IMG/VR virus record: IMGVR_UViG_3300034117_000605
Coordinates: 1-31,838 of that record
Reading direction: 5' to 3' (one strand)
Origin: a virus
Length of the DNA stretch: 31,838 nt
Below, piece after piece: positions 2,395 through 29,896 of this stretch; within the stretch, counting starts at the first letter, position 1, and each line of letters starts with the position of its first letter. A model generated the notes under the pieces. It was not told the origin of the DNA and did not search any database. It saw nothing but the letters and a program-made list of their open reading frames with translations. A program made the translations under genes and the position numbers.

Positions 2395-2721
2395 ATGACA
2401 GTAAAACAAACAGCACAAGAGTTAATCGGTAACTTTTACGCAATTCAAGACACAATTGGATGGACTAATGATAATAACTTAGTCAATGAATTAAACGAGT
2501 GGAATGAAACCAATAAAAAAGAATCAGTAAAGTATTGGTTGATATTAGCTACAAAGTCTGCATTGATTTTAGCACAAAATACATTACAAGCATTAATTGA
2601 CACACATCATAAAATTAATGTAAGGACATTAGAGGATTTATTAGAATACGATAAACAAATAAAATATTGGGAAGCAGTCAGAAATGAATTGAAAAAAGAA
2701 ATAAAAAGAGTAGAAAAATAA
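2395..2721 (+). CDS. Helical hypothetical protein (108 aa)
   Basis: The predicted protein is almost entirely helical, with heptad-like patterns in the last 35 residues (DLLEYDKQIKYWEAVRNELK) and a charged C-terminus. No catalytic motif, membrane segment or signal peptide is visible, and I do not recognise the family. It sits inside the recombination operon, 17 bases upstream of the SSB-like gene, and follows a 73-base spacer without an evident promoter. The start ATG follows AAAAACAAATAAC. A role as a DNA-metabolism accessory or an anti-host protein would be guesswork. Confidence 0.72.
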   Translation: MTVKQTAQELIGNFYAIQDTIGWTNDNNLVNELNEWNETNKKESVKYWLILATKSALILAQNTLQALIDTHHKINVRTLEDLLEYDKQIKYWEAVRNELKKEIKRVEK

Positions 2722-26205: not shown

Positions 26206-26238
26206 TTGTTGTATATAAAAATAAAGTTTATATATTTG
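26206..26238 (+). promoter_or_regulatory. Bacteroidetes-type promoter of the replication operon
   Basis: TTGTTG (26206-26211), a 19-base spacer and TATATTTG (26231-26238) form a near-ideal promoter. The block is almost identical to 148-180: 26206-26240 and 148-182 differ at two of 35 positions. It would drive the small genes from 26269 through the DnaA-like gene, and perhaps on into the helicase genes. Confidence 0.77.
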
Positions 26239-27475: not shown

Positions 27476-27892
27476 ATGAGATTAAAAATAAACGAACTAA
27501 AAGAAGTTTTAAAACTAGAACAATACAATTACATTGATGTTTTAGGAGCGTGCCCTTTTACATTGTGTGAATTAGGCGAAAAAAATAGAATTCAGGAGGT
27601 TGTAATTTGGCGCCAATTCTTGGTAAGCGTTGCAAAAGCGCAGGGAATGACTTACTTTCATGCTGGGGCTTTGGTTAACTTGGATCATTCAACAGTGATT
27701 CACGCAATGAAAGCTGTATTTTTTAGGGTTCAGGACAAACAATTTCCTGAGTATCGCGAGGTGTTAAAACAAATCAAACAACACATTGAAATGAATGTTA
27801 CACTAAGTGATGATATTTGCGTAAATGAGTTGAATTGCATAGTCATGTTGGATAAATTAATCGGTAAAAAGTTTCAATTATGCGCGTATTAA
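27476..27892 (+). CDS. Stand-alone DnaA domain IV-like DNA-binding protein
   Basis: Residues ~38-85 (N-R-I-Q-E-V-V-I-W-R-Q-F-L, then L-V-N-L-D-H-S-T-V-I-H-A-M-K) match the C-terminal DNA-binding domain of DnaA, whose signature D-H-S-T-V-x-H-A contacts the DnaA box. The AAA+ ATPase and N-terminal helicase-loading domains are absent: total length is 138 residues. It may mark the phage origin, steer the phage initiator or titrate host DnaA sites. It is encoded in the replication operon, upstream of the initiator and helicase genes. The remaining C-terminal ~45 residues are not recognised. No clear DnaA-box cluster was spotted by eye. Confidence 0.82.
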   Translation: MRLKINELKEVLKLEQYNYIDVLGACPFTLCELGEKNRIQEVVIWRQFLVSVAKAQGMTYFHAGALVNLDHSTVIHAMKAVFFRVQDKQFPEYREVLKQIKQHIEMNVTLSDDICVNELNCIVMLDKLIGKKFQLCAY

Positions 27893-28131
27893 TCAAAAAA
27901 GAAAACCAGTATCGAACTATTCAAACAAGGTTTTTAAACTTTGACTTTGATGTTAAGCGTTTAGAATTCGTTGGGTACGTTAAAAACGACGGAATAAGCA
28001 AGTACAAAGGCGTTACAGTTTTCAACTTCGATACAATCAGTTATTTATCAACGTCCGAACTTGGCTTCATTCATTGCGTTGGGTTGGTAGGGAAACAAAT
28101 TTTTCAAATAGTCCTTAGAAATAAAAAATAA
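27880..28131 (+). CDS. Small beta-rich hypothetical protein (83 aa)
   Basis: The protein consists of predicted short strands (M-R-V-L-I-K-K-E-N-Q-Y-R-T-I, then F-D-F-D-V-K-R-L-E-F-V-G-Y-V, K-G-V-T-V-F-N-F-D) with a basic C-terminus. It overlaps the DnaA-like gene by 13 bases and ends immediately before the TATATTTG promoter and structured leader, so it closes the first part of the replication operon. The family is not recognised. Confidence 0.66.
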   Translation: MRVLIKKENQYRTIQTRFLNFDFDVKRLEFVGYVKNDGISKYKGVTVFNFDTISYLSTSELGFIHCVGLVGKQIFQIVLRNKK

Positions 28132-28143
28132 TTTATATATTTG
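28132..28143 (+). promoter_or_regulatory. -7 element TTTATATATTTG upstream of the structured leader
   Basis: The 12-base string TTTATATATTTG is identical to the -7 region of the promoters at 169-180 and 26227-26238. No good TTTG/TTG lies at the matching -33 position, so strength is uncertain. Transcription would start near 28147-28151, at the first bases of the hairpin described at 28149. Confidence 0.6.
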
Positions 28144-28148
28144 GGCTT

Positions 28149-28230
28149 CGAAGCGTAGGAACTTCAAGAATTTTAATTTAAAAGCTGGCATGAAAAGGTA
28201 ATCCTACGCACCTTGATTGCTGGCTTTTTG
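28149..28230 (+). ncRNA. Candidate kissing-loop / pseudoknot RNA leader of the replication initiator
   Basis: Hairpin 1 pairs GAAG (28150-28153) with CTTC (28162-28165) around loop CGTAGGAA. Hairpin 2 pairs AAGGT (28195-28199) with ACCTT (28210-28214) around loop AATCCTACGC. The loops are exactly complementary: GCGTAGGA (28153-28160) with TCCTACGC (28202-28209), counting the closing G. An outer pairing AAAAGC (28180-28185) with GCTTTT (28223-28228) encloses hairpin 2 and runs into five T residues. The start ATG of the next gene is at 28245. No matching known RNA family is recognised. It may be a regulatory leader, an attenuator or a free small RNA. Confidence 0.55.
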
Positions 28231-28244
28231 CATTTAAAAAAAAG

Positions 28245-28907
28245 ATGGCTAAAAATCGAGAGGCTTTTAATTTTTACAGATCTTATTTTTCAGTTTACAT
28301 GGAGTTAAACAATGAAGAAAAAGTTTTGTTTATGGACGCTTTACTAAACAAACAATTTAAAGGGGTTGAACCTGAATTAAACGGAATTGTAAAATTTGCT
28401 TATTTATCGCAAAAGCATTCTATTAATAAGCAAGTTGAAGGGTGGGAAAGTAAAACAAAAACAGTGTTATCAGAAGTAAATTTAATACCTAATGAAGACC
28501 CTACCGAAGGGGGTTGCAAAGGGGGTTCGCAAGGACCTTACCTACAAGAGAAAGGGAAAGAGAAAGGGAAAGTAGAATTAACTATTGCCACGACTAAAGT
28601 CGAAGCGGTTGAATCAATTGATTTTGAAAAGTTGTTGAGTTTTATAAATTTTTCCTTTGGCAGAAAATTTCAAATTGTAAGTAAAAAAGTACGCGCCAGT
28701 TTTAACGCACGAATAAAAGAGGGCTATACAAAGGATCAAATTACGGATGCCATAAATAATTGCAAAGAAAACGCATACCATAAAGAAAAAAATTATCAAT
28801 ATTGCACCCCTGAATTTTTTAGCAGGTCCGAAACGTTAGACAAATATTCAAACGTTACAAAACAAGAGAAAAAAGTATACGCATTTCACCCCGTAATATT
28901 CGACTGA
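28245..28907 (+). CDS. Replication initiator-like protein (DUF6291 plus Phg_2220_C-like)
   Basis: The N-terminal ~70 residues (N-R-E-A-F-N-F-Y-R-S-Y, then F-M-D-A-L-L-N-K-Q-F-K-G, K-F-A-Y-L-S-Q-K-H-S-I) look like DUF6291, a winged-helix-like domain at the front of phage replication proteins. A low-complexity linker with K-G-G-S-Q-G-P-Y-L-Q-E-K-G-K-E-K-G follows. The C-terminal part, from F-I-N-F-S-F-G-R-K-F-Q to Y-C-T-P-E-F-F-S-R-S near 131-200, fits the conserved phage C-terminal domain that contacts helicase. It probably binds the origin and loads the helicase encoded next (TGATG overlap). Expression may be controlled by the structured leader upstream. Confidence 0.78.
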   Translation: MAKNREAFNFYRSYFSVYMELNNEEKVLFMDALLNKQFKGVEPELNGIVKFAYLSQKHSINKQVEGWESKTKTVLSEVNLIPNEDPTEGGCKGGSQGPYLQEKGKEKGKVELTIATTKVEAVESIDFEKLLSFINFSFGRKFQIVSKKVRASFNARIKEGYTKDQITDAINNCKENAYHKEKNYQYCTPEFFSRSETLDKYSNVTKQEKKVYAFHPVIFD

Positions 28908-29896
28908 TGTATAAAAGACTTGAAAACATAAAACCCGAATTGGACCATTACCGAACACATGGGGTTGAACGTGGTAAATCAATTGGTTGGACGTGGGAAC
29001 AATTACCTTTGACAATTAAACTTGGATGTACAACGTTTATTGGTGCCGCTCCAGCTTCAGGGAAAACGGAATTTTGGTTTGAGATTTTAATTAACCTTAG
29101 CTGTTTACATGGTTGGAACCACGTAATTTATTCACCTGAAACTGGGGACTCTAAAGACATTTTTTCGGAACTTTGCCACAAGTACATTGGTAAAAAATAC
29201 GTATTGGGTGAAAACGCAATGGATGAAAGCGAACGCGCAATGGCTGAATACTTTATAAACGAACATTTTGTTGTTATTGATCCAGTTGATGAGGATTTAA
29301 CAGTGAATCATTTTTATAAAATTGTGGACCAAATAGAACGCGATTTAAACATTCAGATACACACAACAACAATTGATCCATGGAATGAATTAACTGAAGA
29401 GTTTGAACCAAACGATTTGGGACGTGAGGATAAATATTTGAGCAGGATTTTAGGCTACAGCCGTAAAAATGCACGCAAGAATAAACGGCATAATTGCATA
29501 ATAACACACGTAAGAGATCAGGCACCAATTACAAAAGACGGCGTAACATATTACCCAGCACCAAGCGCACGCGATTTAGCAGGCGGTCAAGTTTGGTTTA
29601 GAAAAGGTTTGTTAATGATTACTTTGTGGCGTCCCCCTGCAGGAATAGCAGAAAACGAAGAGGGTTATTACTTAGATAATGAATTGCACGTGAGAATTGC
29701 CAAAAGCAAACCGAAAGGCGTTTCAAAAAACGGGGTTTATAAAATGTTTTTGAATGTAGAAAGTTATCAATATTTTGTAAAAGACTATTTTGGAGCTGCT
29801 AAGTACGCGGATCGCGGAACACATACACGCATAAAATCCAAAGAAATAAAACCAGTTAATTTTTACGAACAAGAAAAAACAGAATTTAAATTTTAA
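28907..29896 (+). CDS. DnaB-type RecA-fold replicative helicase (core only)
   Basis: A 329-residue RecA-like ATPase: Walker A G-A-A-P-A-S-G-K-T at 46-54, Walker B T-T-I-D-P-W-N near 154-160, a T-H-V-R-D-Q motif at 200-205 in the place of the DnaB/RecA sensor region, and G-G-Q-V-W-F-R-K-G at 226-234. The N-terminal primase-binding domain of DnaB is missing; the first ~35 residues are a short lead-in, as in phage helicases of the Twinkle/KaiC-like group. It would form a ring and unwind phage DNA, loaded by the upstream initiator. No primase is encoded, so host DnaG is presumably used. Confidence 0.86.
   Translation: MYKRLENIKPELDHYRTHGVERGKSIGWTWEQLPLTIKLGCTTFIGAAPASGKTEFWFEILINLSCLHGWNHVIYSPETGDSKDIFSELCHKYIGKKYVLGENAMDESERAMAEYFINEHFVVIDPVDEDLTVNHFYKIVDQIERDLNIQIHTTTIDPWNELTEEFEPNDLGREDKYLSRILGYSRKNARKNKRHNCIITHVRDQAPITKDGVTYYPAPSARDLAGGQVWFRKGLLMITLWRPPAGIAENEEGYYLDNELHVRIAKSKPKGVSKNGVYKMFLNVESYQYFVKDYFGAAKYADRGTHTRIKSKEIKPVNFYEQEKTEFKF

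Follow-up and report, generated by a model that had tools for sequence, protein, structure and literature searches.

We report that a non-coding gap at the head of a phage replication operon encodes an RNA that, judging from sequence comparison, almost certainly adopts a kissing-loop structure, in which two loops pair with each other, that of a 5′ hairpin (strand X) and that of a 3′ hairpin resembling a terminator (strand X′). The RNA apparently represents a widespread and undescribed family of Flavobacteriia phages, whose members keep the loop pairing while changing its letters, and it probably controls the replication operon that it precedes.

Layout of the element in the window

The window analyzed here is an entire IMG/VR virus record of 31,838 bases, with terminase, portal, replication and NinG-type genes. 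An earlier note on this DNA had described a promoter, two hairpins and complementary loops within a 113-base non-coding gap; direct reading and folding place all of them, and the gap between its two bounding ORFs, exactly where the note had them (Table 1). The promoter follows the Bacteroidetes consensus TAHHTTTG, with G at −5 (PMC6847099), and from this geometry transcription is predicted to start at about 28148, 2 bases 5′ of the first hairpin. On direct reading, X (GCGTAGGA) and X′ (TCCTACGC) are exact reverse complements. The note's outer AAAAGC/GCTTTT pairing running into five T is present as well, although the stem proved longer, at 11 pairs, with four of the five T inside it.

Table 1. 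Positions of the element and its surroundings in the window, and of the elements in phages that carry two
Feature	Position	Strand	Basis or remark
Second TATATTTG promoter, preceding non-coding gap	26231..26238	+	sequence
Non-coding gap holding the element, 113 bases	28132-28244		between ORFs 27880-28131 and 28245-28907
Bacteroidetes -7 promoter element TATATTTG	28136..28143	+	sequence read; fits TAHHTTTG
5′ hairpin GAAG-CGTAGGAA-CTTC	28150..28165	+	GAAG 28150-28153, CTTC 28162-28165
X GCGTAGGA, 5′ strand of kissing helix	28153..28160	+	covariation; first G doubles as hairpin-closing base
A/U-rich single-stranded linker joining both hairpins	28166..28179	+	sequence; 14 nt in window
3′ terminator-like hairpin	28180..28228	+	folding, covariation
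Outer stem of 3′ hairpin	AAAAGCTGGCA 28180-28190 with TGCTGGCTTTT 28218-28228	+	
Inner stem of 3′ hairpin	AAGGT 28195-28199 with ACCTT 28210-28214	+	
Loop of 3′ hairpin AATCCTACGC	28200-28209	+	
X′ TCCTACGC, 3′ strand of kissing helix	28202..28209	+	sequence read, covariation
T-run, five T	28225-28229	+	
DUF6291 / phage replication initiation protein-like gene, directly downstream of element	28245..28907	+	
Helicase-like gene, next in operon	28907..29896	+	phrog_5482; weak primase/helicase match phrog_239
Two elements in one phage	L090:1088-1186 and 2490-2589		
Two elements in one phage	L118 near 453 and 3081		
Two elements in one phage	L124 near 1869 and 9159		
Two elements in phage FL-1	L192 near 941; L227 near 3711		

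The second promoter may also feed transcription through the element. In the window, no extragenic promoter was found from the element up to the replication genes, so transcription into the initiator and helicase genes has to pass the 3′ hairpin unless an intragenic promoter is used. Two genes upstream of the RNA, at 27476-27892, the window encodes a small protein whose match to the DnaA C-terminal (DNA-binding) domain falls just under the Pfam cut-off; in 20 loci, proteins like it are encoded ahead of the RNA.

Folding of the window sequence by itself recovered both hairpins at −22.5 kcal/mol, an unremarkable stability (z = −1.30; 24 of 200 shuffles were equally stable), and thermodynamics alone would therefore not support the structure. 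Support comes instead from relatives of the element in other phages.

Loop pairing across related phages

IMG/VR was scanned for GCGTAGGA-N30-60-TCCTACGC, and among the many stretches that matched was one coherent family, with TATATTTG, GAAG-CGTAGGAA-CTTC, an A/U-rich linker and a hairpin with the loop nATCCTACGC; a tighter pattern scan found the module with the window's loop pair in 49 IMG/VR contigs. Two other groups from the loop-pattern scan, with spacings of 70 and 75, were rejected as unrelated sequences sharing the same letters. In the spacing-70 group (L113, L114, L116 and others), which belongs to different phages, GCGTAGGAGG and CCTCCTACGC form an inverted repeat 70 bases apart in a strongly conserved, probably coding stretch. 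Because pattern scans fix the loop letters, they cannot test covariation, and loci were therefore gathered independently of the loops, from matches to the proteins of the two genes downstream. A covariance model built from five other phages (R2) recovers the window at 76.9 bits and, among the protein-found loci, picks out L013, L020 and L023, which carry GCGTGAGA/TCTCACGC: both loops are altered and their complementarity is kept. More distant loci have other loops and structural details on an unchanged plan. R2 E-values are rough; matches at E 0.03-10 mix subtype B and C relatives with chance, and a match at E 0.007 in phage FCL-2 (L217) was rejected as a simple hairpin outside the family.

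The least biased evidence comes from 57 loci selected solely by position and promoter. The element is present in 54 of them, representing 33 distinct sequences, and in all 33 the loop regions are complementary over 6-9 bp. In two of the loci, L034 and L044, the longest match reported by our script is another stretch, the loop pair GTTGCAG/CTGCAAC being present nonetheless. The three loci missed by the script are L066, which has the element, L036, which has it imperfectly (by eye, its loop pairing is kept with one mismatch and one G-U), and L007. The earlier note had named, as what would tell against it, homologous leaders whose loops change without compensating each other; here the two loops change together and the pairing survives.

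Covariation agrees. Among 16 sequences of the subtype that we call C, the covariation score is 0.735, compared with 0.233±0.024 for shuffled sequences and at most 0.127 for slid structures; 94.6% of cells are paired, and 6 of the 8 pairs of the kissing helix show changes on both sides. MAFFT misaligns the 5′ stem among these sequences, and that stem was read sequence by sequence instead. The window's own subtype (12 sequences) scores 0.196 against 0.083±0.014 and is 99% paired, with double compensatory changes in 3 of 7 kissing pairs and none in slid structures. Its 5′ stem, GAAG/CTTC, is nearly invariant, some members having CGAAG/CTCCG with a mismatch; because it hardly varies, that stem is not itself proved by covariation in this subtype. 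Loops complementary over at least 6 bp, combined with compensatory changes, place the element among kissing-loop RNAs, and the syntenic result and both covariation tests together exclude a chance origin of the complementarity. The promoter-led RNA with tertiary loop-loop pairing that the note had proposed is thus borne out, and this is a tertiary contact that can be proved from sequence.

The same comparisons make it very improbable that the stretch is a DNA feature, such as a repressor site or the palindromes of a replication origin, or the product of chance. Such a reading would accord with the adjoining replication initiator and with the unremarkable single-sequence fold, but it sits badly with the compensatory changes and frequent G-U pairs, with the strict strand and promoter geometry, and with a would-be binding sequence that varies freely. 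In subtype C, U-G is the most frequent pair at three positions of the outer stem, as expected of RNA but not of a DNA cruciform.

Three subtypes share the plan. Subtype A, that of the window, has loops of 8-9 nt and 10 nt; subtype B has 6-7-nt loops, for example GGGT-[GTTGCAG]-ACCC with GTG-[CTGCAAC]-CAC; subtype C has a 13-14-nt loop made of X and ACAnATA and a 10-nt loop made of two bases and X′. At least 21 classes of X were counted, with an additional one, GGGCTGAA, in phage FL-1; as the class detector demanded at least 6 complementary bases, the class list is a selected one and the unbiased evidence remains the 33 of 33 syntenic sequences. Predicted loop-pairing energies range from −6 to −15 kcal/mol. 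Of 420 comparisons between loops of different classes, only 15 reach a match of at least 6 bases, and most share just 2-4. The family supplies about 21 natural kissing-loop pairs, mostly mutually non-matching, for RNA design.

Promoter and 3′ end recur across members. TATATTTG is present in 54 of 63, the promoter often starting within ~15 nt of the preceding stop codon, and a T-run of at least four follows X′ by 8-42 nt in 62 of 63 (at least five T in 52). Many of these T pair within the stem, and in some members the stem ends in TTTTCGC, a weak terminator. A hairpin and U-run thus stand between promoter and operon, as in the sequence of an attenuator or intrinsic terminator. That the RNA begins at a 5′ hairpin just past the promoter and heads an operon would also suit a leader for processive antitermination or 5′ protection, whose folded 5′ end travels with the polymerase or shields the mRNA from RNases. 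We consider this improbable: a U-run right after the 3′ hairpin would favor stopping, and hypervariable loops and the start-codon copies of X described below would go unexplained.

As the note had supposed, the element matches no known RNA family: nothing in Rfam 15 reached the gathering cut-off in the window, and thresholds relaxed to E 10 for the region and to E 5 for ten loci drawn from all three subtypes gave nothing relevant. Our literature search, whose incomplete coverage could have missed one, found no published description. The exact type-A loop pair is absent from about 85,000 bacterial and archaeal genomes, and hence no prophage or host copy of type A was seen; a search with the helicase found no relative in the same genome set. 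Most family members come from metagenomic contigs. The window has no detected nucleotide similarity to cultured phages, which were reached by tblastn with the helicase. The cultured phage FCL-2 carries an element with loops CATCCAC/GTGGATG, and FL-1, also cultured, carries two, CGTCTCAC/GTGAGACG and GGGCTGAA/TTCAGCCC, all in unannotated gaps. Loops are predicted at NC_027125.1 37494-37500 and 37557-37563 for FCL-2 and at KY421186.2 18940-18947 and 18996-19003 for FL-1; no convincing element was found in Riemerella phage PT03. FL-1 also has, at about L192 1625-1800 (KY421186.2, about 19.6-19.8 kb), tRNA-like ends GGAGTGTGGCGGAACTGGTAGACGC ... GGGGGTTCGAACCCCTCCACTCCA some 190 nt apart, a candidate tRNA with an insertion or other tRNA-like RNA, and at L192:1838-2086 an 82-aa protein that by eye resembles an acyl carrier protein, with the motif NDSLDKVEFVMDLE.

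Helix renewal and genomic setting

Close relatives reveal how the helices evolve. L060 and L062 are 92% identical upstream and 99% downstream but 81% in the RNA (AGGCAG versus GTTGCAG); L028 and L037 are 97% identical downstream and 76% in the RNA; L208 shares 96% upstream identity with L037 yet belongs to a different subtype. For L210 and L045, with 100% identity downstream and 82% in the RNA, differences fall in 17 of 36 columns of stem 1, the kissing helix and the inner stem and in 2 of 62 other columns. Near-identical flanks with differing helices indicate turnover of the helices, with the pairing and the unpaired bases preserved; the route could be recombination with members of other classes or repeated compensated mutation. 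Helices that outpace neighboring genes with their pairing intact are an uncommon sign that RNA specificity is under selection. Where one phage carries two RNAs (Table 1), their loop pairs always differ, as if avoiding cross-pairing.

The position ahead of initiator and helicase genes that the note saw in one phage recurs: clusters of the two lie downstream, directly or one gene on, in nearly all loci, across about 60 distinct RNAs, and in L090 and L124 a BT4734-type primase follows. The gene that comes first downstream varies; in some loci its product is a small uncharacterized protein, in others an endonuclease of HNH/NUMOD4 or GIY-YIG type, which means that translation control of a single gene cannot be general. 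Genes of homing-endonuclease type are recurrently inserted exactly between the RNA and the initiator (HNH/NUMOD4 in L107, L078, L066 and L124; GIY-YIG in L145). In one subgroup (L108, L112, L122, L162, L184, L008 and L089), a second conserved stretch, AAAGTTACTGGT..AAAACCTTTATT, lies 60-70 nt past X′, with a small gene (MVSLKF... / MVQL...) following it.

Six of the 21 classes repeat X immediately before the start codon of the next gene (GTTGCAG-ATG, GTGCAGTAAG-ATG, AGGCAGTAAAA-ATG, GGACAGATT-ATG, ATGCAGA-ATG and CTTCGACA-ATG); when X of one class is compared with the start regions of others, only 2 of 420 comparisons give a match of this kind. Structure around the start codon tunes translation downwards in Flavobacterium johnsoniae (PMC6847099), so pairing of X′ there would plausibly repress. 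It cannot be a general mechanism, as the window has no third copy and the start-codon copy in L060 belongs to another class and no longer fits its own X.

Possible functions and comparison with known systems

We consider the chances evenly balanced that the element is a leader or attenuator that adjusts the replication operon self-specifically and releases a free small RNA as well. In this scheme, the replication operon of Flavobacteriia phages would open with an RNA of ~95 nt, started by the host-type promoter, and X would pair with X′ to give the kissing-loop fold. Part of transcription would halt at the 3′ hairpin, releasing a free small RNA, and the remainder would read into the replication genes, with X:X′ pairing setting the balance between stopping and read-through. 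In phages with a third copy of X, X′ could instead cover the next start codon and block translation. Since X′ would also fit X on other copies of the same RNA, and rarely that of another class, the element would act self-specifically in the manner of the copy-number RNAs of plasmids. This would account for an advantage of new loop pairs. Place, terminator-like end and start-codon copies favor cis control of the replication operon, with the small RNA as a by-product or co-regulator.

The main rival is a trans-acting, host-directed RNA: a stable early transcript whose conserved unpaired bases bind a host factor (polymerase, RNase or defense protein) or serve as its decoy. The kissing helix would then be scaffolding, with letters that drift or change under pressure from host nucleases or CRISPR. 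We regard this rival as unlikely, though deserving serious attention. It would be served by the RNA's own promoter and terminator-like end, by the varying neighboring genes, and by subtype C, where the unpaired linker is the best-conserved part (0.91, or 91%, versus 47% for the inner stem). X is also absent elsewhere in several complete phage contigs, its 7-mers recurring only within the RNA when a trans target was sought in the phage (G003, G004, G011 and the window). A trans-acting role leaves unexplained why the RNA so constantly heads the replication operon and why third copies of X stand at start codons.

A further reading, which we hold more tentatively still, casts the element as a new class of hypervariable, self-kissing RNAs that mark each phage lineage with an identity of its own, for copy number or superinfection ("incompatibility"). 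The sense RNA would act as its own antisense regulator, and diversifying selection would create new loop pairs.

Any self-complementary loop pair could also act between molecules, X of one with X′ of another, and yield dimers or rings akin to the phi29 packaging RNA or the ROOL and GOLLD cages; phage RNAs that multimerize by kissing loops are known (PMC12286853). Sequence cannot separate intramolecular from intermolecular X:X′ pairing, but the element precedes replication and not packaging genes, and by a rough count the 14-nt linker of the window should be long enough for pairing within one molecule, so we give multimers a slim chance.

Several known RNAs share part of this architecture. The put RNA of phage HK022 has two hairpins just past an early phage promoter; it is not known to have a loop-loop helix, and it differs in lacking a U-run and in host and sequence. 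ColE1 RNAI and RNAII meet through kissing loops of ~7 nt beside replication control, but they are an antisense pair from opposite strands and act on a primer and not on an initiator operon. The phi29 packaging RNA is a small phage RNA with two mutually complementary loops; unlike the element, which is located at replication genes, it pairs between molecules and serves the packaging motor. ROOL and GOLLD are phage-encoded RNAs with covarying kissing loops (PMC12286853). Unlike the element, which has no Rfam match, they span hundreds of nucleotides, lie near tRNA genes and form RNA cages.

The I-complex plasmids (IncI/IncB/IncK; RNAI and the rep leader) resemble the element in having short kissing hairpin loops upstream of a replication gene, and their rep leader also has long-range loop pairing. 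Their loop changes create new specificities, and one nucleotide change can alter compatibility (PMC10724649). The element likewise is a leader upstream of a replication initiator with loops that vary between groups. In the plasmids, however, the loops meet an antisense RNA transcribed from the opposite strand, whereas both loops of the element lie on one sense RNA; no opposite-strand TAnnTTTG, the promoter type tested, is conserved within 200 nt of it, and without a conserved antisense promoter we do not class it with plasmid incompatibility RNAs despite its class-specific loops. The replicons differ too, a plasmid in one case and in the other a phage for which no prophage copy was seen. If the RNA does set replication self-specifically, lytic phages would have an incompatibility logic of the kind known from plasmids.
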